From: Bradyrhizobium guangxiense
GTDB taxonomy: Bacteria; Pseudomonadota; Alphaproteobacteria; Rhizobiales; Xanthobacteraceae
DNA length: 64,000 nt
NCBI RefSeq assembly: GCF_004114915.1
Contig: NZ_CP022219.1
Location: forward strand, 6,850,501 to 6,914,500
Direction of reading: 5' to 3'
In this document: positions 1 to 12,431 of the stretch, piece by piece
Layout: each line of letters opens with the position of its first letter
How positions within the stretch are numbered: position 1 is the stretch's first letter
Notes under the pieces: model-generated
Database searches by the model: none
Told to the model about the DNA's origin: nothing
Seen by the model: the letters and a program-made list of their open reading frames with translations, nothing else
Program-made: the position numbers and the translations under genes

Positions 1-526
1 CGTGTGACGTATCCACTACGAAATCGGCCCGCTTGCGCTTCTCGGCGTCGGGCGTCTGCTTGGCGATGATGGCATCGAGCTTGGCTTCGTCCATCGTCCC
101 GCGCGCCAGCACCCGCTCGCGCTGGAGTTCCGGCGAGGTCGAGACCACGACCACGGCGTCGACCCGCGTCTCGCCACCGGTCTCGAACAGCAGCGGAATG
201 TCCAGCACCACGACCGGCGCCTTGGCGGCCTCGGCCGCGGCGAAGAATTTTTGCCGGGACGCGCCGAGCATGGGATGAACGATCTGCTCGAGCTGCTTGA
301 TGGCGGCGGGATCGTGCACGACGCGCGCAGACAGCTTTGGCCGGTCCACCTTGCCGTCCACGGTGGTGCCGGGAAAGGCCGCTTCGATCGCCGGCGCAGC
401 TTCCCCCTCGTAGAGCTGATGCACGGCGGCATCCGCGTCGTAGACGGGCACGCCGGCCTCCGCGAACAGTTTCGCGGTGGTGGATTTTCCCATCCCGATC
501 GAGCCGGTCAGTCCCAGGATCCGCAT
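1..526 (-). CDS. coaE: Dephospho-CoA kinase (3' end cut by window)
   Basis: This gene encodes the last enzyme of coenzyme A synthesis, which phosphorylates dephospho-CoA on the ribose 3'-OH using ATP. The ATG lies at 524-526 and the protein opens with the P-loop [11 protein letters not shown] (residues 5-15), followed by the [10 protein letters not shown] segment typical of CoaE. About 175 residues are visible, ending in ADFVVDTSH, so only the C-terminal tail is missing. It starts 21 bp beyond the maf stop and is probably co-transcribed with ppsR and maf. In Caulobacter, as I recall, aroE sits between maf and coaE; here there is no room for it. Confidence 0.95.
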
Positions 527-547
527 CAGCGCGCAGCCATTTCTCAT

Positions 548-1156
548 CTACACCGCAACTAGCCGTTCACGGCGCAGGAACGCAAGCAGCGGCAGCAGCG
601 GCAGGCCGAGAACAGTGAAATGATCGCCCTCGATCCGCTCGAACAGATGGATGCCCAACCCCTCGAGCTGATAGGCGCCGACGCTGGTCGTGACGGCGTC
701 GCCGACAACATCCAGATAGGCTGAAAGCTCGCCCTCGGTCATCTCTCGCATGGTCATGCGGGCGATCGAGACGTCGTCGAAAATGATCTTGCCGTCATGC
801 GCAACCGCCACTGCCGAATTCAGCTCGTGGCTGTTGCCGGCGAGGTCGCGCAATTGCGCCAAGGCCTGCGGACGGCCTGCGGGCTTGTTGAAGAGCCGGT
901 CGCCAAGCGCCAGGGTCTGATCGGCGCCGATCACGTAGCTTGCGGGATGATTGACCGAGACCGCCTTGGCCTTTTCGCGCGCCAGCAGCGAAGCGATCTC
1001 GCGCGGGTTGGAAAGTTTCGAGGTGGCTTGAATACCGCGTTCGTCGATATCGGCTGTGATCGCCTTGAACTCCAGCCCGGCATTGGCCAGCAGCATCTTT
1101 CGCGCGCTGCTCTGCGAGGCCAGAATCAACGGAGATTTGCCGAGCCACAGACCCAT
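548..1156 (-). CDS. maf: Maf-like nucleotide pyrophosphatase
   Basis: Maf proteins are house-cleaning pyrophosphatases that hydrolyse non-canonical nucleoside triphosphates; some members influence septum formation. The 202-residue protein has the family signatures: SQSSARKMLL near residue 14, GADQ at 77-80 and GAYQLEGLG at 160-168. I chose the ATG at 1154-1156 because it gives the usual short lead to LILASQSSARK. A longer frame to 1264 would overlap ppsR by 100 bp and adds no recognisable residues. The gene begins 8 bp after the ppsR stop and ends 21 bp before coaE, so the three are probably one transcript. Confidence 0.93.
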   Translation of the reverse strand: MGLWLGKSPLILASQSSARKMLLANAGLEFKAITADIDERGIQATSKLSNPREIASLLAREKAKAVSVNHPASYVIGADQTLALGDRLFNKPAGRPQALAQLRDLAGNSHELNSAVAVAHDGKIIFDDVSIARMTMREMTEGELSAYLDVVGDAVTTSVGAYQLEGLGIHLFERIEGDHFTVLGLPLLPLLAFLRRERLVAV

Positions 1157-1164
1157 CGTGAAAA

Positions 1165-2010
1165 CTATTCGGAAGGCCGGTTGCGCTGACGATCGCTGTA
1201 CAGCTTCATGATCGCCGCCGCGGTCTCCTCGATGGAGCGACGCGTGACGTCCAGCAGCGGCCAATCATGCTTGGCACTCAGCTTGCGCGCGAACGCGACC
1301 TCCTCGGTGACGGACTGCTTGTCGGTATAGCTGTCGCTGCCGCTACCGGATTCGGCTCCCATGGAGAGCAGGCGATTCTGCCGGATCTGGATCAGGCGTT
1401 CCGGCGTCGCGTGCAGGCTGACGACCAGTGGCCGCGTCAGCGTCTCCAATTGCGAGGGCACCGCGATGCCGGGAACCAGCGGGACGTTGGCGGTACGGAT
1501 GCCGCGATTGGCGAGATAGATCGACGTCGGCGTCTTCGAGGTGCGGGACACGCCGACCAGCACGACATCGGCCTCGTCGAGACCTTCGACATGCTGGCCG
1601 TCGTCATGGATCATCGTGTAGTTCAGCGCGTCGATGCGCTTGAAATATTCCGCGTTGAGGACGTGCTGAGCGCCGACGCGGCCCGTGGTCGCAGCCCCGA
1701 GATAGGCTTCGAACAGCTGCATCACCGGGCCGATGATCGACAGGCTCGGAACATTGATCTCCTTGCACTTGTCCTCGAGCCTGGAGACCAGATCCTTCTC
1801 CAGCAGCGTGAACAGCACGATCCCCGGCGCCTCCTCGATCTCGTCGAGCACGCGATCGAGCTGCTTCTGGCTGCGCACCAGCGGATAGACATGCTCGACC
1901 GGCGTCACATTGGCGTACTGGGCTGCGACCGCGCGCGCCACGGTGATCAGCGTCTCGCCGGTGGAGTCGGAGACCAGGTGCAGATGGAAATAATTGTTCG
2001 AGGTCGGCAC
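1165..2010 (-). CDS. ppsR: PPDK/PEP-synthase regulatory protein (DUF299)
   Basis: This is a bifunctional serine/threonine kinase and pyrophosphorylase that switches pyruvate phosphate dikinase (or PEP synthase) off and on by reversible phosphorylation of a threonine, using ADP as phosphate donor. The 281-residue protein has the N-terminal [10 protein letters not shown] motif (12-21) and the P-loop-like GVSRTSKT (153-160) diagnostic of DUF299. Its ortholog flanks the replication origin in Caulobacter and Rickettsia, next to hemE. Here it is the first gene of the leftward ppsR-maf-coaE group, and its upstream gap (2011-2469) is the candidate origin. Confidence 0.95.
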
Positions 2011-2034
2011 AAAAACTCTTTGAATTGAGCTGGG

Positions 2035-2292
2035 GTGGTTTGTGGATTTCTGTGGAGCTTAACCCCTCGGAAAGGGATGTGCGACACCAGGGGCGGGACA
2101 AGTGCCAATTTTCTTCACACCGCTGCCCGTCAGAACAAGTTCGTCGCCCCAGCGGGCCGGGAACTGGATTACGCGGACAACCCCTTTGATAAGCTGCCGA
2201 TAGAAAGGCGCAAGCCTTTGAAGCTGGCCGACTTATCGCAAAGCGCCAGAGCGATCAGGGATATGTTGATCGGTGTGAACAAGCGCGCGTGA
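2035..2292 (+). CDS. Small hypothetical ORF in origin gap (doubtful)
   Basis: An open frame of 85 codons starts at a GTG (2035), with an internal ATG at 2077. The C-terminal part, [23 protein letters not shown], is hydrophilic and charged. I recognise no family. No convincing ribosome binding site precedes either start, and third-position GC bias is much weaker than in neighbouring genes. It overlaps the DnaA-box-like sites. It may be a chance frame, or a remnant of whatever replaced hemE at this position. Confidence 0.22.
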
Positions 2293-2347
2293 ACGCGCGG
2301 ATGGAATTGCGTGAGTCCAATCCACGGTCACATAGACTCAAACCTTA

Positions 2348-2362
2348 AGAATCTAAGATTCT
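2348..2362. repeat. Inverted repeat carrying two GANTC sites
   Basis: AGAATCT and AGATTCT form a perfect 7-bp inverted repeat around a single A. Each arm contains a GANTC site (GAATC at 2349, GATTC at 2357), the target of the CcrM methylase in alphaproteobacteria. The surrounding 30 bp are unusually A+T-rich for this genome. Confidence 0.7.
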
Positions 2363-2409
2363 AGATTTGAGGAAGGCACTCCGGACGGATATGTGTGCAG
2401 GGTAGGACC

Positions 2410-2424
2410 TTAACGGGTTCTTAC
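2410..2424. promoter_or_regulatory. Near-consensus CtrA-type box
   Basis: TTAA-CGGGTTC-TTAC matches the CtrA consensus TTAA-N7-TTAA at all but one position. It lies 46 bp upstream of the hemJ start and within the candidate origin, where CtrA boxes are known in Caulobacter. CtrA binding here is an inference. Confidence 0.4.
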
Positions 2425-2469
2425 TATCCCCAGCGTTCCCTGCGCTGGATAGAAATCCGGACCGCAAAT

Positions 2470-2904
2470 ATGTTCGAAGACGTCTATCTGTGGATCAAGG
2501 CGCTGCATGTCGTCGCCGTCATCTCCTGGATGGCGGGCATGCTCTATCTGCCGCGGCTGTTCGTCTATCATTCCGAGGCCGAGATCGGTTCGAAGCAGTC
2601 GGAAACGTTCAAGGTGATGGAGCGCCGGCTCCTCAAGGCCATCATCAACCCTGCCATGATCGTCACCTGGCTGGCCGGGCTCTATCTCGCATGGTCCGGC
2701 CATTGGTTCTCATTCGGCTGGCTGCACGTAAAACTGGCATTGGTCCTGGCGATGTCGGCGGTCCACGGCTTTTTTTCCCGCTGGCTGAAAGATTTCGCCG
2801 CCGACCGCCGCCCACGGAGCCAGAAATTCTATCGGATTATCAATGAGGTGCCGACCGTCCTGATGATTGTCATCGTCATCATGGTGATCGTGAAGCCGTT
2901 CTAG
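2470..2904 (+). CDS. hemJ: Protoporphyrinogen oxidase HemJ
   Basis: HemJ is the membrane protoporphyrinogen IX oxidase used by most alphaproteobacteria in haem synthesis. The 144-residue protein is mostly transmembrane. It begins [20 protein letters not shown], with the conserved early histidine H13, and has the LHVKLALVL segment (H86, K88) of the family. I chose the ATG at 2470; the longer frame from 2395 adds 25 non-conserved residues. It lies upstream of rho in the same direction, as in other alphaproteobacteria, but the usual hemE neighbour is not present. Confidence 0.93.
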
Positions 2905-3152
2905 GCAAGGCGCCCGGCAAATCGCTCAGCGCTTCTTCTTGCGGAGCGGAGAGCGATTTTCTATATTGTCGACATCCCACCCAACGCAGGCGGATGTGGT
3001 TGTGTCTGAGCTTTCCAGAGGCCGGACACCGCATCAGGTTTGAAGCCTCACCGGCACTTAACCTTGCCAGACCTGCGGACCTTATCTTCTCACGTCCGCA
3101 TTTCAGAGCCTCCTCGCACCCCCTCCAAGCGTTACCCCACAGGACCACCCCA

Positions 3153-4418
3153 ATGCGGGAAATCAAACTTCAGGACCTCAAGTCGAAAACGCCGGCCGAG
3201 CTCGTCTCGTTCGCGGAAGAGCACGGGGTCGAGAACGCCAGCACGATGCGCAAGCAGGAGCTGCTGTTCGCCATCCTCAAGCAGCTTGCGCTCGCCGAGA
3301 CCGACATCGTCGGTGAGGGCGTCGTCGAGGTTCTCTCCGACGGCTTCGGCTTTCTCCGCTCGCCCGATGCGAATTACCTGCCGGGCCCCGACGACATCTA
3401 CGTTTCGCCATCGCAAATTCGCCGTTTCGGCCTGCGCACCGGCGACACCATCGAAGGCCATATCCGCAGCCCGAAAGAGGGCGAGCGCTATTTCGCGCTG
3501 CTGAAGGTCAACACGCTCAATTTCGAGGACCCGGAAAAGGCCAAGCACAAGGTTAATTTCGACAACCTCACGCCGCTGTTTCCGAATCAGCGTTTCCGCA
3601 TGGAAATCGACGATCCGACGCGAAAGGACCTGTCCGCGCGCGTGATCGACATCGTCGCGCCGATCGGCAAGGGCCAGCGCGCATTGATCGTGGCGCCGCC
3701 GCGTACGGGCAAGACCGTGCTGATGCAGAACATCGCGCACTCGATCACGCATAACCATCCCGAGTGCTATCTGATCGTGCTCTTGATCGACGAGCGCCCG
3801 GAAGAAGTTACGGACATGCAACGCTCGGTGAAGGGCGAGGTGGTGTCCTCGACCTTCGACGAACCTGCGGTGCGTCACGTCCAGGTCGCCGAGATGGTAA
3901 TCGAGAAGGCCAAGCGGCTTGTCGAGCATGGTCGCGACGTCGTCATCCTCTTGGATTCGATCACGCGCCTCGGCCGCGCCTACAACACCGTGGTGCCGTC
4001 ATCCGGCAAGGTGCTGACCGGCGGCGTCGACGCCAATGCGCTGCAGCGCCCGAAGCGCTTCTTCGGTGCCGCCCGCAATATCGAGGAGGGCGGCTCGCTG
4101 ACCATCATCGCCACGGCGCTGGTCGATACCGGCAGCCGCATGGACGAAGTCATCTTCGAAGAGTTCAAGGGTACCGGTAACTCGGAACTGATCCTGGACC
4201 GCAAGGTCTCGGACAAGCGCACCTTCCCGGCGATCGACATCTCGCGCTCCGGCACCCGCAAGGAGGAGCTCATCACCGATCCGCAGGTGCTCAAGAAGAT
4301 GTACGTTCTGCGCCGCATCCTCAACCCGATGGGCACCATGGACGCGATCGACTTCCTGCTCGACAAGCTGCGCTCGACCAAGAGCAATTCGGAGTTCTTT
4401 GACTCCATGAACACCTGA
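3153..4418 (+). CDS. rho: Transcription termination factor Rho
   Basis: Rho is a hexameric RNA-dependent ATPase and helicase that releases transcripts at factor-dependent terminators. The 421-residue protein shows an N-terminal helical domain, the RNA-binding cold-shock motif DGFGFLR (63-69), the Walker A segment APPRTGKT (181-188) and the Walker [10 protein letters not shown] region (211-219). The ATG at 3153 gives the family's standard start [18 protein letters not shown]; the upstream frame extension is non-conserved. It is preceded by hemJ and followed by its own strong intrinsic terminator. Confidence 0.98.
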
Positions 4419-4442
4419 GTGCGTTGCAGCAAAGAACCAGAG

Positions 4443-4464
4443 GGGCGCCTTCTGGCGCCCTTTT
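4443..4464 (+). terminator. Intrinsic terminator of rho
   Basis: GGGCGCC and GGCGCCC (4443-4449 and 4454-4460) form a 7-bp GC stem with a TTCT loop, followed directly by TTTT. It lies 24 bp after the rho stop codon. Confidence 0.85.
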
Positions 4465-4618
4465 GTTGCGACTTTGCTGCGCGGAGGGTGCAACATGATT
4501 GGTGATTTGCCACGGAGCCCTGGCTTCCGTGTAATCAGTTGATATCTTGATATAATACTTGATATTTGCTGCAGCTGCCTGCTCGGGATGAGGCGGTTCC
4601 GCAGCAAAGCACGTCCAC

Positions 4619-4637
4619 TATATTGCACTGCAATATA
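4619..4637. repeat. Perfect 9-bp inverted repeat, 1-nt spacer
   Basis: TATATTGCA and TGCAATATA flank a single C. The dyad sits in the A+T-rich rho-mnmE gap, about 90 bp upstream of mnmE, surrounded by TTTGCTGC octamers. It looks like an operator, but no cognate regulator is evident. Confidence 0.6.
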
Positions 4638-4729
4638 GGCTTTGCTGCAAGATTTGCTGCAGCAATTTGCACCGCTGGCGGGGCCAAAACCGCCATTTGC
4701 GTTTTCGCTGGGAGCCGGACAAATAGGCC

Positions 4730-6085
4730 ATGCATCCGAGCGATCAGACCATCTTTGCGTTGTCGTCCGGCCGCGCGCCGAGCGCGATCGCGGTGGTGCG
4801 CGTTTCCGGCTCGCAGGCCGGTACGGTTCTGGCGACCCTCGCGGGCAAGCTGCCTCTGCCGCGGCAGGCAAGCCGGCGGCTGCTCCGCGACGGCGCAGGC
4901 CAGCCCATCGACGACGCAGTCGTGCTCTGGTTTCCCGGACCGGGCAGCGCAACGGGCGAGGACATCGCCGAATTTCACGTCCATGGCGGCCGCGCGGTGC
5001 TGACCGCGCTTTTTGCCGCGATTTCGATAATTCCGAATACACGAGCGGCCGAGCCCGGCGAGTTCACGCGGCGCTCGTTCGAGAACGGCAAGCTCGACCT
5101 TACCGAGGCCGAGGGCCTCGACGATCTCATTCACGCCGACACCGACCGCCAGCGCCGCCAGGCGCTGCGGCAGTTGCAGGGCTTGCTCGGCGACCGTGCG
5201 CGCGACTGGCGTGAGCGCATCATCGAGGCTTCGGCGCTGATCGAGGCCGGCATCGATTTTTCCGATGAAGGCGATGTGCCCGCGGAATTGATGGCGCCGG
5301 CCGTGAAGGCGATCAAGGCGCTGCATGATGAGATCACAGAAGTGCTTGCGGCACAGGGACATTCTGAACGCCTGCGCGATGGCCTGGTGGTTGCGATCGC
5401 GGGCGAGCCGAATGTCGGCAAATCGACGCTGATCAATCAGCTCGCGCGTCGCGAGGTTGCGATCGTCTCACCGCACGCCGGCACGACACGCGACGTGATC
5501 GAGGTGCAGCTCGATCTGGACGGCTATCCCGTCACGATCATTGATACCGCAGGCATCCGTGAGACCGAGGATCCCGTTGAGCAGGAGGGCGTGCGCCGCG
5601 CGCGGGCGCGGGCCGAGGACGCTGACTTGGTGTTGTGGTTGGTCGAGTCCAGGCAGGCCGTCGATCCGGGCACCATGCGCTCGCTTCGAAAGTCCAAAGG
5701 CGGCGATCGGTCGGAGGGGACGGTCTGGATCGTGCGCAACAAGATCGATCTCGATGGCGTCGGAAGAGCCCGGCCGGGTGGCGAGTTCGAGATATCGGCG
5801 GGTCGCGGCGACGGCATCCCCGAGCTGCTCGAGGCGGTGGTGAAGTTCGCTTCGGGGTTTTTCGGAACCACCGAGGGGGCCGTGGTGACCCGGGCGCGCC
5901 AGCGCAACTTGTTGAGCCGGGCCGCAGACAGCTTGCGCCGCAGCTTGGACCTTGTAGAAGACGGCGAGGAGCTCGCCGCCGAAGAGCTGCGTGCCGCCGC
6001 CTATGCCCTCGGTCGTCTGTTGGGCCGCGTGGACGTCGAGGACGTTCTTGGGGCCATCTTCCAGAAATTCTGCATCGGAAAGTAG
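4730..6085 (+). CDS. mnmE: tRNA modification GTPase MnmE
   Basis: MnmE works with MnmG to add the aminomethyl or carboxymethylaminomethyl group at wobble U34 of several tRNAs. The 451-residue protein has an N-terminal tetrahydrofolate-binding domain, then a G domain with G1 GEPNVGKS (225-232), G2 GTTRD (251-255), G3 DTAG (272-275) and G4 NKID (337-340). It ends in FCIGK, which includes the catalytic cysteine of the C-terminal helical domain. mnmG follows after a 447-bp gap holding parS sites. Confidence 0.97.
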
Positions 6086-6120
6086 CGCTAGTTCTTCATT
6101 CTAGAACTAGTGCTTGTTCC
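6086..6120 (+). terminator. Hairpin after mnmE
   Basis: CTAGTTCT (6088-6095) and AGAACTAG (6103-6110) pair perfectly, and the stem extends outward with G-U and C-G pairs. The loop is 7 nt. The downstream sequence TGCTTGTTCC is only weakly T-rich, so termination efficiency is uncertain. Confidence 0.5.
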
Positions 6121-6273
6121 ATTGCTTGTATTTCACGTGACGGGCGCGGCAGCGGAACTCGTTCCTTTGGCTTGAGACGCCCTCTGCAGCCCGATTAGCA
6201 CAAAATGCAATCCGTGACCGGAAGACGGCAACCTCCGCGTCTCGATGCTCCGGGCTTGGGGCCTTCTGCCTGA

Positions 6274-6289
6274 CGTTTCACGTGAAACA
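6274..6289. promoter_or_regulatory. parS site 1 (ParB binding)
   Basis: cGTTTCACGTGAAACA matches the bacterial parS consensus TGTTTCACGTGAAACA at 15 of 16 positions and has the full palindromic 14-bp core. It lies in the mnmE-mnmG gap. ParB, encoded at 10215-11102, is the expected ligand. Confidence 0.93.
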
Positions 6290-6370
6290 TAGGGTCTTGT
6301 ATGTGATGCCGCGGCACGCGTCTCCCGCTCAGCGGGCAGAGGCGGCTTCCTTGCCTGTCCATGGTGATTT

Positions 6371-6386
6371 TGTTTCACGTGAAACA
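6371..6386. promoter_or_regulatory. parS site 2 (perfect consensus)
   Basis: TGTTTCACGTGAAACA is an exact 16/16 match to the parS consensus. It lies 97 bp after site 1, in the same gap upstream of mnmG. Confidence 0.96.
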
Positions 6387-6405
6387 GCAGTCCATTCAAC
6401 GCCTC

Positions 6406-6432
6406 TTCTACTGTGCATGGGGTTGTTTTCGC
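6406..6432. repeat. 27-bp repeat, copy 1
   Basis: An exact 27-bp match to 46314-46340, both beginning TTCTACTGTGCATGGGG. This copy sits between parS sites 2 and 3. I have seen this sequence type recurrently in Bradyrhizobium intergenic regions, but I do not know its function. Confidence 0.75.
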
Positions 6433-6458
6433 GATTTTCTCCGCCGGCCACGCGCTTC

Positions 6459-6474
6459 CGTTTCACGTGAAACA
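6459..6474. promoter_or_regulatory. parS site 3
   Basis: cGTTTCACGTGAAACA is a 15/16 match, located 58 bp before the mnmG start codon. Sites 1 to 3 are spaced 97 and 88 bp apart. Confidence 0.93.
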
Positions 6475-6532
6475 CCTGCCACGCCCAGTTTTCCCCTTCC
6501 GGCTTTTCTGCCGCTGGGCTAGAAGTCCGCCC

Positions 6533-8413
<1,881 letters not shown>

Positions 8414-8414
8414 G

Positions 8415-8430
8415 CGTTTCACGTGAAACA
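8415..8430. promoter_or_regulatory. parS site 4, overlapping the rsmG start
   Basis: cGTTTCACGTGAAACA matches parS at 15 of 16 positions. The GTG in its CACGTG core (8423-8425) is the apparent rsmG start codon, so the site lies across the mnmG-rsmG junction. Confidence 0.92.
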
Positions 8431-9196
8431 ACGCGGACCGGGCGGGGACAGGCCGCGATCGCGACGGCCTGGAGCGGGTGAGGGCGCCGGTCGCCGATCC
8501 GATCCGACGCCGACCAAGCCGAAGACCGACAAGGCCAAAGCCAACGATCAGGCGTTGGATGCCGTCATTGCCGCCGACAAGATCGCGGCGCTCAAGCTGG
8601 CACCCGTTTCACATGAAACGGAAGCGCGGCTCGACCGCTACATCGCGCTGCTCAGGGAGTGGCAGGCCAAGACCAATCTGGTCGCGCCCTCGACCCTGCC
8701 GCACCTCTGGACCCGCCATATCGCCGACTCGCTCCAGCTGGTCGATCTCGCGCCGACCGCAAAACGCTGGGCCGATCTCGGCAGCGGCGGCGGCTTTCCC
8801 GGGGTCGTGCTCGCCTGCGCCATGGCCGGGACACCGGGCGCGAGCGTCCACCTCGTCGAACGAATCGCCAAGAAGGTCGCCTTTTTGCGCGAAGCGATCC
8901 GCGTCACCACATCTCCGGGAGTCGTACATCTCGCTGAGATCGGGGATAATGTGGATAGAATCACCGGCCCGGTCGATTGCGTCACCGCGCGTGCACTGGC
9001 TCCGCTACACCAACTTATCGGCTTTGCGGAGCCGCTGATGCGCCAGGGCGCAAAGGCGTTGTTTCTCAAGGGTCAAGATGTAGAGGCTGAATTGACCGAA
9101 GCCGCTAAATATTGGAATATTGCGCCTCAGCTCCACCAGAGCCGCACGGGTGACGGCTGGATCGTGGAGTTCAACGCCGCCGAGCGGCGCAGCTGA
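8423..9196 (+). CDS. rsmG: 16S rRNA m7G527 methyltransferase RsmG (GidB)
   Basis: RsmG methylates N7 of G527 in 16S rRNA using S-adenosylmethionine. The catalytic part is clear, with the SAM motif DLGSGGGFPG (118-127) and the downstream TARALAPLHQL segment. The open frame begins with GTG at 8423, inside parS site 4, and the first 50 or so residues are low-complexity Arg/Pro/Lys-rich. The 257-residue length is longer than usual (about 210), so translation may start later, for example at TTG 8558, though no ATG is in frame before the conserved core. Gene order mnmG-rsmG-parA-parB is conserved in bacteria. Confidence 0.93.
   Translation: MKQRGPGGDRPRSRRPGAGEGAGRRSDPTPTKPKTDKAKANDQALDAVIAADKIAALKLAPVSHETEARLDRYIALLREWQAKTNLVAPSTLPHLWTRHIADSLQLVDLAPTAKRWADLGSGGGFPGVVLACAMAGTPGASVHLVERIAKKVAFLREAIRVTTSPGVVHLAEIGDNVDRITGPVDCVTARALAPLHQLIGFAEPLMRQGAKALFLKGQDVEAELTEAAKYWNIAPQLHQSRTGDGWIVEFNAAERRS
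8605..8620. promoter_or_regulatory. Degenerate parS-like site inside rsmG
   Basis: cGTTTCACATGAAACg differs from the 14-bp palindromic core at one central base (CACATG for CACGTG). It encodes VSHET in RsmG. It may bind ParB weakly or be a decayed site. Confidence 0.45.
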
Positions 9197-9226
9197 GGCG
9201 TTCAGGGGTTGAGTGGGGAAATTTCG

Positions 9227-10093
9227 ATGACCGTGATCGACGAGCCGCAGCAAGACCAGACCGGCCAAGAGAAGGCTGAGGTCCCGCATGGCCATCCGCG
9301 CATCCTCGCGCTGGCGAATCAGAAGGGTGGTGTGGGAAAAACAACCACAGCGATCAATCTCGGCACGGCGCTCGCGGCCATCGGCGAGCGCGTCCTGATC
9401 GTCGATCTCGATCCCCAGGGCAACGCCTCGACCGGCCTCGGCATCGACCGCCGCAACCGCTCCTGCTCGACCTATGACGTGCTGGTCGGCGAAGCCGCCT
9501 TGCGTGAGGCGGTGGTGTCGACCGCGGTGCCGCGGCTGCACATCGCGCCCTCGACCATGGACCTCTCCGGCCTCGAGCTCGAGCTCGGCACCACGCCCGG
9601 CCGCGCCTTCAAGCTGCGCGACGCCATCGGCGCGCTCAACAACAACGTCTCGCCGGATGCCGACTACACCTATGTGCTGATCGACTGCCCGCCCTCGCTC
9701 AACCTGCTCACGGTGAACGCGATGGCCGCCTCCGATGCGATCCTGGTGCCGTTGCAGTGCGAGTTCTTCGCGCTCGAAGGTCTGTCGCAATTGCTGCAGA
9801 CGGTGGAGCAGGTGCGCTCGACGCTCAATCCGAACCTGTCGATCCACGGCATCGTGCTGACCATGTTCGACTCGCGCAACAACCTCTCGAACCAGGTCGT
9901 CGCCGACGTTCGGCAATTCATGGGCGAGAAGGTCTACAAGACCATGATCCCGCGCAACGTGCGCATCTCGGAGGCGCCGTCCTACGGCAAGCCGGTGCTG
10001 GTCTACGATCTCAAATGCGTCGGCAGCGAAGCGTATTTGCGGCTCGCTACCGAAGTGATCCAGCGCGAGCGCGAGTTGCGCACGACGCATTGA
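9227..10093 (+). CDS. parA: Chromosome partitioning ATPase ParA
   Basis: ParA is the Walker-type ATPase that moves ParB-parS complexes to segregate newly replicated origins. The 288-residue protein has the deviant Walker A KGGVGKTT (33-40), the A' motif with D60 and D62 (IVDLDPQGN) and Walker B LIDCPPSL with D153. It lacks an N-terminal helix-turn-helix, so it is the chromosomal type. I chose ATG 9227 (MTVIDEPQQ) over the TTG at 9209, although the TTG is also in frame. parB follows after 121 bp. Confidence 0.96.
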   Translation: MTVIDEPQQDQTGQEKAEVPHGHPRILALANQKGGVGKTTTAINLGTALAAIGERVLIVDLDPQGNASTGLGIDRRNRSCSTYDVLVGEAALREAVVSTAVPRLHIAPSTMDLSGLELELGTTPGRAFKLRDAIGALNNNVSPDADYTYVLIDCPPSLNLLTVNAMAASDAILVPLQCEFFALEGLSQLLQTVEQVRSTLNPNLSIHGIVLTMFDSRNNLSNQVVADVRQFMGEKVYKTMIPRNVRISEAPSYGKPVLVYDLKCVGSEAYLRLATEVIQRERELRTTH

Positions 10094-10095
10094 AT

Positions 10096-10167
10096 CCGGA
10101 ATCCCGAGATTTGAAATTGAACAACGTCGAGATCCCGGGTTCGCGCTTCGCGCGCCCCGGAAGGACG
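10096..10167. repeat. Partial GTCATTCCGGGG-family repeat
   Basis: The parA-parB gap contains a partial copy of the palindromic family found at 12445, 34715 and 53496. Shared blocks include GAGATCCCGGGTTCGCG and GCGCCCCGGAA. The outer arms are eroded. Confidence 0.5.
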
Positions 10168-10214
10168 AAAACAGAGTAGCAGGAGCGTTCGAGTTGAATC
10201 CAAGGGAGCTGGCG

Positions 10215-11102
10215 ATGGCCGACGAAGCGCGTTCGCGACTGGGCCGGGGTCTTGCAAGTCTGATCGGTGACGTCGGCGGCGAGGCCCAGCATGTCGATCG
10301 TCCGCGCGCACAGCGCAAGGTGCCGATCGAATTCATCAAGGCCAATCCGCGCAATCCGCGCCGCACCTTTTCGGACGCCGAGCTGAAGGAGCTTAGCGAG
10401 TCCATCAAGCAGCACGGCGTGATCCAGCCGATCGTGGTGCGCCCGGTGAAGGGCGCGCAGGACCGCTTCGAGATCATCGCCGGCGAACGGCGCTGGCGCG
10501 CCTCGCAAATGGCCGGCCTGCACGAGGTGCCGATCGTCCCCGTCGACATCAGCGACAGCGATGCGCTGGAGTTCGCGATCGTCGAGAACGTGCAGCGCGA
10601 AGACCTCAACCCGATGGAGGAGGCGCAGGGCTATCACGCGCTTGCCAACGAGTTCAAACGCAGCCAGGACGACATCGCAAGGGTCGTCGGCAAGAGCCGC
10701 AGCCACGTCGCCAACATGATGCGGCTGACGAAACTGCCGGCCGAGGTGCAGGCCTTCATCGCGACCGGCGAGCTGACCGCCGGTCACGCCCGCGCACTGA
10801 TCGGCGTGCCGGATCCGCTCGCGGCCGCCAAGCGCATCGTCGCGGAAGGCCTCAACGTCCGCCAGGCCGAGGCGCTGGCGCATGAGGAGGGCGTGCGGGA
10901 GCGAAAGCCGCAAAAGGCGCGTGCCAGCGGGGGCAAGGAAAAGGACCCCGACACGATCGATCTCGAAAAGCGCGTCAGCGATGCGCTCGGCCTGAAGGTC
11001 ACCGTCAATCACCGCGACCCCGGCGGCTCGGTGCAGATCAACTACCGCAACCTCGATCAGCTCGACGAGGTGATGAAGCGGCTGGCCAAGGGCGTGCTGT
11101 AG
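10215..11102 (+). CDS. parB: Chromosome partitioning protein ParB
   Basis: ParB is the CTP-dependent DNA clamp that loads at parS and spreads to form the partition complex. The 295-residue protein has the N-terminal CTPase motif GERRWRA (90-96), the ENVQREDLNP motif (124-133), a helix-turn-helix around 152-172 for parS recognition and a C-terminal dimerisation region. The ATG at 10215 is preceded by AAGGGAG; an in-frame TTG at 10194 is less likely. Its predicted targets are the four parS sites 1.8-4 kb upstream. Confidence 0.96.
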   Translation: MADEARSRLGRGLASLIGDVGGEAQHVDRPRAQRKVPIEFIKANPRNPRRTFSDAELKELSESIKQHGVIQPIVVRPVKGAQDRFEIIAGERRWRASQMAGLHEVPIVPVDISDSDALEFAIVENVQREDLNPMEEAQGYHALANEFKRSQDDIARVVGKSRSHVANMMRLTKLPAEVQAFIATGELTAGHARALIGVPDPLAAAKRIVAEGLNVRQAEALAHEEGVRERKPQKARASGGKEKDPDTIDLEKRVSDALGLKVTVNHRDPGGSVQINYRNLDQLDEVMKRLAKGVL

Positions 11103-11161
11103 GCCGTCCTTGTCCTTCCGGCGCGCCTGAAAATCTCGCGCAACACAATCACGCTTTCTCC

Positions 11162-11263
11162 CTCACCCTGAGGAGCCGCCAAGCGGCGTCTCGAAGGGCG
11201 AGGGCCACAGGCGGGCCAGCATCCTTCGAGACGCGCGCAAGAGCGCGCTCCTCAGGATGAGGA
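11162..11263. repeat. Long palindromic repeat after parB
   Basis: The arms CCTCACCCTGAGGAGC and GCTCCTCAGGATGAGG, with an inner CTCGAAGG/CCTTCGAG pair, form a long imperfect hairpin. This is a familiar Bradyrhizobium intergenic palindrome. It lies between the convergent parB and holA genes and may act as a bidirectional terminator. The whole 11103-11402 gap consists of this element, the next one and short linkers. Confidence 0.7.
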
Positions 11264-11301
11264 ACTGACGCCGTCATTGTAAAGCGCATCTGTCTCCACA
11301 T

Positions 11302-11381
11302 CGTCATTGCGAGCGTAGCGAAGCAATCCAGAATCTTTCCGCGAAGGGACTCTGGATTGCTTCGCTTCGCTCGTAGTGACG
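11302..11381. repeat. Second palindromic repeat in the parB-holA gap
   Basis: The left arm (11302-11332, beginning CGTCATTGCGAGCGTAGCG) and the right arm (11351-11381, ending CTCGTAGTGACG) are nearly perfect reverse complements about 31 bp long. The loop is about 18 bp. It belongs to another intergenic repeat family common in Bradyrhizobium. Confidence 0.75.
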
Positions 11382-11402
11382 GGGACAGCGTGAAGGCTTC
11401 AA

Positions 11403-12431
11403 TTAGCCCCGCCGCTTCGCATTCGCCGCGATCGCCATCAGCGTGCGCTGGGCGATGGCGGCGGCCAGGGTCGATTGCTTGCGTGTCTCAAGCGCGGCGG
11501 TCGCGAGCTGCTCGATCACGGCAGCGAGCCGCGTCACGCTGAAATTGCGCAGCGCCGTTTCCACTGCGGGCTTGCGTGAGAAATGCAGGCGCGGAAAGCC
11601 GCCATCGAGCACGGCGGAGGCCGGCGTGCCCTCGGCGATTGCCAGCGCGGATTTGTGCAGCCACGCCGCCTGGCGCTGCGCGGCTGAGATGATCACGCCG
11701 GGGTAGGTGCCGGCGGTCATGGCCTTGGCGAATTCGATCTCGACGATGTCGGGCCGCCCGGCAAAGGCGCCGTCAACGATCGGGTCGAGCTTCAGCTCGG
11801 AGGCGTCCGCGACTACCGCCATCACGTCGTCCAGCGTCACCTCGCCTTTGCCGTGAGCGTAGAGCGTCAACTTGCGCAGCTCGTTGCGCGAGGCCTGGCG
11901 GTCACCGCCGAGGAACGACATCAGCGCCGCGCGGGCGTCCTGCGCGATGCGCAGGTTGGAGATACGCAGTTCCTCGTCCATCAGCTTGGCGAGGTCGCGC
12001 TCGGTATCGGGATAGCAGCCGATTGCCACCGCGGTCTTGGCGCGTTCGCAGGCCTTGCGCAGCGGCGATTCCGGGCGCAGCTCGCCGGCCTCGATCACGA
12101 TGCGGCAATCCCTGACGTTCATCTCGGCCAGCGTGTCGATGCCGGCGGCAAAGCTGCGCGAGCCGGCGCGAACGCGAATGGCGCGGCGGCCGCCGAACAG
12201 CGGCACGGTCATGGCCTCGTCGACGAGGCGCGAGGGCTCGCCGGAGAGCTCGTCGCCGTCGAGCTTGACCAGCGAGAACGGATCGTTGGGATCATCGACG
12301 GCGGATGCGATCAGCGCATCGGCGCGCTCGCGCACGAGGCCGGCGTCCGGACCGTAGAGCAGGATGATCGGGCGACCCGCATCGGGGCGGGCGAGGAAGG
12401 CGTCGATTTCTTTTCCGCGCAGCGCGACCAT
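11403..12431 (-). CDS. holA: DNA polymerase III delta subunit
   Basis: HolA is the clamp-loader subunit that opens the beta sliding clamp during DNA replication. The 342-residue protein begins MVALRGKEIDAFLARP and has the PIILLYGPDAGLVRERAD segment near residue 20, matching the delta N-terminal fold. Its C-terminal helical region (AAQRQAAWLHKSALAI) is typical. It is downstream of leuS and lptE on the same strand, with a 135-bp gap holding a palindromic repeat. holA near parB is common in alphaproteobacteria. Confidence 0.92.
   Translation of the reverse strand: MVALRGKEIDAFLARPDAGRPIILLYGPDAGLVRERADALIASAVDDPNDPFSLVKLDGDELSGEPSRLVDEAMTVPLFGGRRAIRVRAGSRSFAAGIDTLAEMNVRDCRIVIEAGELRPESPLRKACERAKTAVAIGCYPDTERDLAKLMDEELRISNLRIAQDARAALMSFLGGDRQASRNELRKLTLYAHGKGEVTLDDVMAVVADASELKLDPIVDGAFAGRPDIVEIEFAKAMTAGTYPGVIISAAQRQAAWLHKSALAIAEGTPASAVLDGGFPRLHFSRKPAVETALRNFSVTRLAAVIEQLATAALETRKQSTLAAAIAQRTLMAIAANAKRRG

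Follow-up and report, generated by a model that had tools for sequence, protein, structure and literature searches.

The stretch of DNA analysed here, called the window throughout, covers 64,000 nucleotides of Bradyrhizobium guangxiense (C1:6,850,501-6,914,500, where C1 is a contig of 7,220,948 bp in a genome of two contigs), and positions are counted from its first base. Near its left end, an intergenic gap that the original prediction singled out as a candidate replication origin (oriC) separates the divergent genes ppsR and hemJ. The main landmarks are the following; entries without a strand have none assigned.

1168..2010, minus strand: ppsR, pyruvate phosphate dikinase regulator (NF003742, 346.7 bits, cut-off 225)
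2011..2469: ppsR-hemJ gap, the proposed oriC (skew change-point, conserved synteny, footprint)
2470..2904, plus strand: hemJ, protoporphyrinogen oxidase (TIGR00701, 170.3 bits, cut-off 138.05)
9209..10093, plus strand: gene of a ParA-type ATPase (ParA families match below their equivalog cut-offs)
10194..11102, plus strand: parB (TIGR00180, 196.7 bits, cut-off 58.45; solved ParB structure 6t1f, E 1.6e-67)

We take ppsR to be of the COG1806 type. Past the gap, hemJ on the plus strand is followed by rho, mnmE, mnmG, rsmG, parA and parB, mnmG and rsmG being named by reading the translations of their open reading frames. Computed over the genome, dnaA, ccrM, gcrA and parABS are all present, so that both a CcrM-type gene and a GcrA gene are encoded. 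The ppsR-gap-hemJ arrangement recurs in 148 of 149 Bradyrhizobium-group loci, and the remaining locus ends at a contig edge. One of the records, labelled Frankia sp. RB7 (L141), carries a Bradyrhizobium-like ppsR-hemJ-rho locus with a ppsR that is 95% identical, and is probably mislabelled or contaminated. The hemE gene lies at C1:1,231,066, about 1.6 Mb from the gap; in B. guangxiense it has moved off the presumed origin, and hemJ borders the gap instead.

The cumulative GC skew of the chromosome, sampled in 93 stretches (1.904 of 7.22 Mb), is lowest near 6.85 Mb and highest roughly opposite, near 3.31 Mb. A two-mean change-point model has its optimum at 6.84-6.855 Mb, and the gap, at 6.8525 Mb, scores within about 0.5 log unit of the best position tested; these log units are approximate because neighbouring blocks are correlated, and a bootstrap over stretches gives a 16-84% range of 6.80-6.94 Mb and a 95% range of 6.02-6.95 Mb. 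In addition, GGGNAGGG is polarised by replication arm (119:25 versus 24:79). A minimum of KOPS was tried as a fine locator and rejected, as the motifs are too sparse and place it at 6.75 or 6.89 Mb depending on the motif used. A skew minimum at the gap was what the original prediction had proposed to look for, and within the resolution of the sample (1.904 of 7.22 Mb; 95% range 6.02-6.95 Mb) the switch expected of an oriC does fall here and not at dnaA. The densest DnaA-like cluster of the sample does lie upstream of dnaA (C1:6,615,104-6,615,420, about 236 kb from the gap), where the 500 bp from C1:6,615,104 hold six boxes with no more than one mismatch and about 300 bp hold six GANTC sites. 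An origin upstream of dnaA is nevertheless highly improbable: moving the change-point to that place costs 12.88 log units, the skew typical of the left arm persists at 6.62, 6.69, 6.76, 6.78 and 6.80 Mb, and autoregulation of dnaA would account for the cluster of boxes.

In a contiguous 224 kb, the skew minimum forms a plateau between -4.4 and +10 kb of the window, and the sampled skew resolves tens of kb at best; because of this flatness, skew alone cannot tell the ppsR-hemJ gap from the rho-mnmE gap or from mnmG. The last of these is where an earlier computational study put the origin, and the following sites bear on that placement.

6274..6289: parS-like site, one mismatch
6371..6386: parS-type palindrome TGTTTCACGTGAAACA, the genome's only match to TGTTYCACGTGRAACA
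6459..6474: parS-like site, one mismatch
8415..8430: parS-like site, one mismatch

We take the palindrome TGTTTCACGTGAAACA to be a parS type of site. The sites lie 4-6 kb from the gap, and no further parS within two mismatches is found elsewhere in the 1.904-Mb sample. The 14-bp parS core is present in 144 of 146 genomes of the genus, a cluster some 3.5-6.5 kb away from the match to the gap is seen in 18 of the 18 genomes with positions listed, and one genome (G132) has an additional copy elsewhere. These sites mark the neighbourhood of the origin; they do not choose between gaps. The sequence TGTTTCACG is half of the parS-type palindrome, and occurs in none of 189 ppsR gaps (0/86 in near relatives, 0/45 in divergent Bradyrhizobium and 0/58 in other genera); its 19 copies in the chromosome sample comprise 5 in palindromes and 14 scattered ones. 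Domain IV of the encoded DnaA aligns with 1j1v over 86 residues, including RPRQ and GGRDHTTVLHA (E 2.8e-24). We assume 1j1v to be the E. coli complex of domain IV with a DnaA box, and 6t1f to be the ParB of Caulobacter; with a domain IV so like that of 1j1v, ordinary DnaA boxes are to be expected.

Ori-Finder in 2008 took the DnaA box of Bradyrhizobiaceae to be TGTTTCACG and, owing to the palindrome TGTTTCACGTGAAACA, placed the origin beside gidA, that is mnmG (PMC2275245). The Lb8 genome paper relied on Ori-Finder (PMC7020250), and the examined part of the 2022 version makes no mention of Bradyrhizobium (PMC10225481). The published placement shares its neighbourhood and the skew switch with the ppsR-hemJ gap, and the palindrome, only about 4 kb away, falls inside the flat skew minimum; the difference is that, on our reading, a parS-type palindrome was taken for DnaA boxes (PMC2275245). 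An origin beside mnmG is most improbable, given that the palindrome adjoins parAB and that the ParB encoded there matches 6t1f, that the DnaA calls for ordinary boxes, and that 14 of the 19 sampled copies of TGTTTCACG stand outside palindromes while ppsR gaps have none.

Conservation within the genus, taken together with sequence content, discriminates between the gaps. Over 74 near relatives, the mean identity is 0.82 for the ppsR-hemJ gap, with best 40-bp blocks of 0.925-0.948 (2051-2130 and 2331-2370), and 0.66 for the rho-mnmE gap; at third codon positions it is 0.64 in mnmE, 0.77 in ppsR, 0.80 in hemJ and 0.81 in rho. Judged from these alignments, the ppsR-hemJ gap is a phylogenetic footprint and the rho-mnmE gap is near neutral. 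It is important to point out that conservation is not decisive by itself, because the hemJ-rho gap is conserved more overall (0.90 against 0.82), presumably as the leader of rho. Its segment 2985-3152 shows coding-level conservation (0.92-0.96 in 40-bp parts) and is possibly a rho leader or attenuator; Rfam gives no match at the gathering score in window positions 1-12000.

The rho-mnmE gap had been named beforehand as a place where an origin would speak against the ppsR-hemJ gap. It lies 2 kb away within the flat skew minimum and contains, at window position 4519, a 50-bp stretch that is equally unstable as that of the ppsR-hemJ gap. Its identity is close to that of mnmE third positions, however, and neither it nor the hemJ-rho gap of the window contains a DnaA-like box or a GANTC site, which leaves an origin there extremely unlikely. 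This poorly conserved gap (4419-4729) also holds repeated TTTGCTGCA words.

Within the ppsR-hemJ gap, the following elements are recognised. Counts refer to the alignment position in 85 near and 45 divergent Bradyrhizobium gaps.

2041..2056, plus strand: tandem TGTGGA, 10 bp apart, putative weak DnaA-like boxes; TGTGRA-N4-TGTGGA in 83/85 near, 31/45 divergent
2111..2119, plus strand: DnaA-like box TTCTTCACA, one mismatch; 77/85 near, 39/45 divergent
2274..2282, minus strand: DnaA-like box TTGTTCACA, one mismatch; 79/85 near, 32/45 divergent
2313..2317: GANTC site 1 (GAGTC); 84/85 near, 38/45 divergent
2319..2325, plus strand: AATCCAC, partial DnaA-box match bordering the A+T-rich element; 68/85 near, 17/45 divergent
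2327..2376: candidate DNA-unwinding element, third least stable separate 50-bp stretch in the surrounding 224 kb
2335..2339: GANTC site 2 (GACTC); 84/85 near, 43/45 divergent
2337..2371: inverted repeat with arms 2337-2345/2363-2371 (9 bp, 89%), enclosing a perfect repeat
2349..2353: GANTC site 3 (GAATC); 85/85 near, 42/45 divergent
2357..2361: GANTC site 4 (GATTC), specific to the near clade; 75/85 near, 1/45 divergent
2387..2394, plus strand: GGATATGT, conserved; 63/85 near, 42/45 divergent
2410..2424, plus strand: near-CtrA box TTAA-N7-TTAC; TTAA-N7-TTAM in 76/85 near, 1/45 divergent

The gaps number 131 distinct ones, after removal of 19 duplicates from 150 genus gaps (B. guangxiense being present twice); of the 146 genomes, 7 that lack a match to the gap were left out, as were some weak matches. 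The divergent loci L207-L246 (40, of which 39 are usable) were picked by a DNA match to the gap itself, so that conservation of the core is favoured in this set. Six divergent loci found via ppsR alone (L171-L176) keep GANTC sites 1, 2 and 3 in 5, 6 and 6 of 6 cases, respectively.

The four GANTC sites at 2313-2361, representing all variants of N, had been the core of the original prediction and are borne out, in a span of 49 bp. The background had been put too high, at about one site per 300 bp: the window contains 132, or one per 485 bp, and the 1.904-Mb sample one per 573 bp. Four GANTC starts within 45 bp occur at a single place in that sample, namely this gap, against 0.24 such places expected. 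Sites 1-3 are retained in divergent Bradyrhizobium. In the 45 divergent genomes, the N at 2349 reads T in 36 cases and A in 6 while GA and TC are constant, as would be expected if the recognition sequence of the methylase is what matters. As far as such comparisons can tell, selection maintains the three GANTC sites that lie within the candidate unwinding element or next to it, and their simplest role would be that of targets for CcrM methylation.

The DNA of the gap is least stable at 2327-2376, where GANTC sites 2-4 and both inverted repeats are located, with site 1 just beside. The A+T-rich inverted repeat of the original prediction turns out to be two: the outer one at 2337-2371 and a perfect inner one of 7 bp at 2348-2362 (arms 2348-2354/2356-2362), whose arms contain GANTC sites 3 and 4. 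The DnaA-box-like 9-mers are likewise present, at 2111 (plus strand) and 2274 (minus strand), as is the TGTGGA pair one helical turn apart, at 2041 and 2051 with 10-bp spacing. No exact DnaA box is found inside 2011-2469; the gap has two one-mismatch copies, conserved though weak. TGTGAACAA is found by alignment position in 79/85 near and 32/45 divergent gaps, and AATYCAC at the alignment position of 2319 in 82/85 and 30/45. Along the gap, the weak boxes come first, followed by AATCCAC at 2319 and then by the least stable DNA, so that the candidate A+T-rich unwinding element stands beside DnaA-like boxes, as in a DnaA-type oriC.

Counting AATCCAC anywhere on either strand would give 86/86 and 37/45, which is overstated; the same holds for any-copy, either-strand counts of GGATATGT, and position-wise counts are used for both. 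GGATATGT occurs twice in the gap (2259-2266 and 2387-2394), with retention in divergent gaps of 2/45 for the first copy versus 42/45 for the second. An automatic anchor on the TCCAC box, which for many loci (the window among them) found a wrong place or none, served only for reading and was kept out of the counts. A perfect copy of the Caulobacter G-box TGATCCACA at 2489, within hemJ, was dropped as a conserved site, since an exact copy is present in 0 of 80 relatives. The IHF consensus is absent from the gap of the window and matched in 1/86 near and 0/45 divergent gaps. DnaA-trios were searched for as a DnaA box with at most two mismatches, a spacer of 0-16 and at least three NAN repeats, following the definition in PMC8287927. 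In the window, the gap shows no more than three, equal to the minimum of that definition, downstream of TTGTTCACA read on the minus strand, and at least five canonical trios occur in 1 of 149 genus gaps versus 1.3 expected.

Beyond Bradyrhizobium, 60 loci from other genera were located via ppsR, one per genus, with about one per family outside the same family. Gap counts are based on 58, as L263 and L282 had no flank recognised within 700 bp and were dropped, and the flank of L247 was set by hand. The residue pattern of HemE follows the ppsR gap in 49 of the 60, usually with hemJ and rho next; hemJ directly follows the gap in Bradyrhizobium and in 8 of 20 genera of the same family. In L263, neither hemE nor hemJ is recognised, rho is the next gene recognised, and the GANTC block is present. 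The module therefore stays while its downstream neighbour changes. Its sequence becomes less recognisable with distance: the 60-bp core gives a clear alignment (z above 5) in 21 of 60 loci and one no better than chance (z below 2) in about 20, all from other families.

GANTC is enriched in both groups, ranking first of the 16 palindromes of the form NN-N-NN: 79 sites versus 39.3 expected in 19 gaps of the same family (z 6.87), and 119 versus 83.0 in 39 gaps of other families (z 4.35; TANTA is next at 4.19). The last 150 bp hold 44 versus 15.9 expected in the same family and 55 versus 29.2 in other families, where 30 of 39 gaps have at least one site in that part. A match to CcrM is found in 59 of the 60 genomes (two of them partial, at contig ends), and the genome missing it is 67% complete. 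On the plus strand of the last 170 bp, AATCCAC occurs in 14 of 58 other-genus gaps versus 0.57 expected, and at least five DnaA-trios follow a DnaA-like box in 15 of 58 versus 1.6 expected.

These comparisons bear on the alternative that the GANTC block is a promoter of hemJ or ppsR controlled by CcrM and GcrA, with no origin involved. The block does lie between divergent genes, and both regulators are encoded. Across the 39 loci with both gaps readable, however, the ppsR gap has 155 GANTC sites versus 83.3 expected, while the hemJ-rho gap shows no enrichment (44 versus 48.5), and the form of the module is constant whether hemE, hemJ or (in L263) rho lies downstream, so that it is not bound to any single promoter. 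A promoter instead of an origin is thus very unlikely; the block could additionally serve as a promoter, above all of ppsR.

The near-CtrA box that had been noted at 2410 (TTAA-N7-TTAC) is present, and no full box, TTAA-N7-TTAA, is found in Bradyrhizobium gaps (0/86 near, 0/45 divergent). The sampled Bradyrhizobium chromosome contains 11 full boxes versus 2 with a spacing of 6 and 1 with a spacing of 8. Full boxes do occur in 15 of the 58 other-genus gaps (L264-L267, L270, L273-L275, L277, L283-L285, L295, L298 and L299), amounting to 17 boxes versus 0.92 expected and a maximum of 6 in 200 shuffles. When the spacing is varied from 2 to 14, a spacing of 7 is found in 15 gaps (0.55 expected) and other spacings in 0-5. 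The rest of the same loci contains none in 146,332 bp, a comparison of little power with 1.05 expected. In L265 and L266, the CtrA box overlaps the AATCCAC position. Alternatively, the full boxes may act at the promoter of ppsR. According to a 2015 review, CtrA sites at origins had not been seen outside Caulobacter and possibly Rickettsia, and ChIP in Hyphomonas neptunium finds CtrA beside the origin (PMC7200025); full boxes in one quarter of the gaps sampled from other genera point to a wider reach of CtrA control over initiation than the review describes.

Overall, the skew switch, the nearby parS sites, the footprint and the synteny with ppsR support the candidate origin, and we put the probability that the ppsR-hemJ gap is the chromosomal oriC, the positional orthologue of the alphaproteobacterial ppsR-hemE origin, at about 0.92. 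In the mechanism we envisage, DnaA would bind the weak boxes (the tandem TGTGGA pair, TTCTTCACA, TTGTTCACA and AATCCAC) and melt the A+T-rich element at about 2327-2376. Helicase would be loaded and forks would run both ways, co-directionally with ppsR on one side and with hemJ-rho-mnmE-parAB on the other, and ParB would then capture the parS sites 4-6 kb away. Firing of the origin would leave its GANTC sites hemimethylated, and their methylation may affect opening. Results from two other bacteria speak against a role of this kind: CcrM is not required for the control of initiation in Caulobacter (PMC3973325), and CcrM depletion in Agrobacterium affects ori2 rather than the DnaA-dependent ori1 (PMC11514494). 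A broader scheme for origins of the Hyphomicrobiales is conceivable though doubtful: GANTC sites of the unwinding element, hemimethylated until CcrM acts late, would impose a SeqA-free refractory period on opening by DnaA, and CtrA control would have been gained repeatedly. With selection acting on GANTC sites near the unwinding element across the order, and CcrM almost universal among its tested genomes, the old question of whether CcrM methylation bears on initiation becomes testable.

The location itself has been proposed before. For USDA110, the origin had been assigned to the interval from bll0636 to blr0637, whose DOA9 orthologues measure 846 bp and 510 bp (PMC4339197), lengths that fit ppsR with its stop codon (1165-2010) and a long frame of hemJ (2395-2904). 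The putative oriC of USDA110 and DOA9 is thus very probably this same gap, and the location is not new (PMC4339197). That proposal rests on comparison with USDA110 and on skew, and the excerpted account includes neither GANTC sites nor a footprint nor a conserved module (PMC4339197). A GANTC footprint of the Bradyrhizobium origin appears in none of the literature matches listed (titles and abstract openings, few of them from subscription papers), which is weak evidence of novelty. Three results go beyond the routine: the footprint with its GANTC sites, the arguments against a prediction built on parS, and the CtrA boxes in other genera. Two published placements of the Bradyrhizobium origin conflict, and the present analysis favours ppsR-hemJ over the gidA/parS palindromes and gives it a precise footprint.

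Among known systems, other genera of the order share with the Bacillus subtilis-type BUS a DnaA-like box followed by NAN repeats above chance, and the Bradyrhizobium version is degenerate. The origins of Caulobacter and Rickettsia are flanked by COG1806 and hemE (PMC1914354); the COG1806/ppsR border is present in B. guangxiense, while the hemE border, usual in the order (49/60) and dispensable for function, is absent. The resemblance to the Caulobacter origin that had been claimed is therefore partial: the Bradyrhizobium gap lacks the full CtrA box, the IHF consensus and the hemE neighbour. It does share with Caulobacter crescentus Cori the COG1806/ppsR neighbour, DnaA-like boxes and several GANTC sites (PMC1914354, PMC3973325), along with an A+T-rich element, and its DnaA-like boxes are weak like the G- and W-boxes of Caulobacter, to which a finely tuned low affinity is ascribed (PMC4468827).
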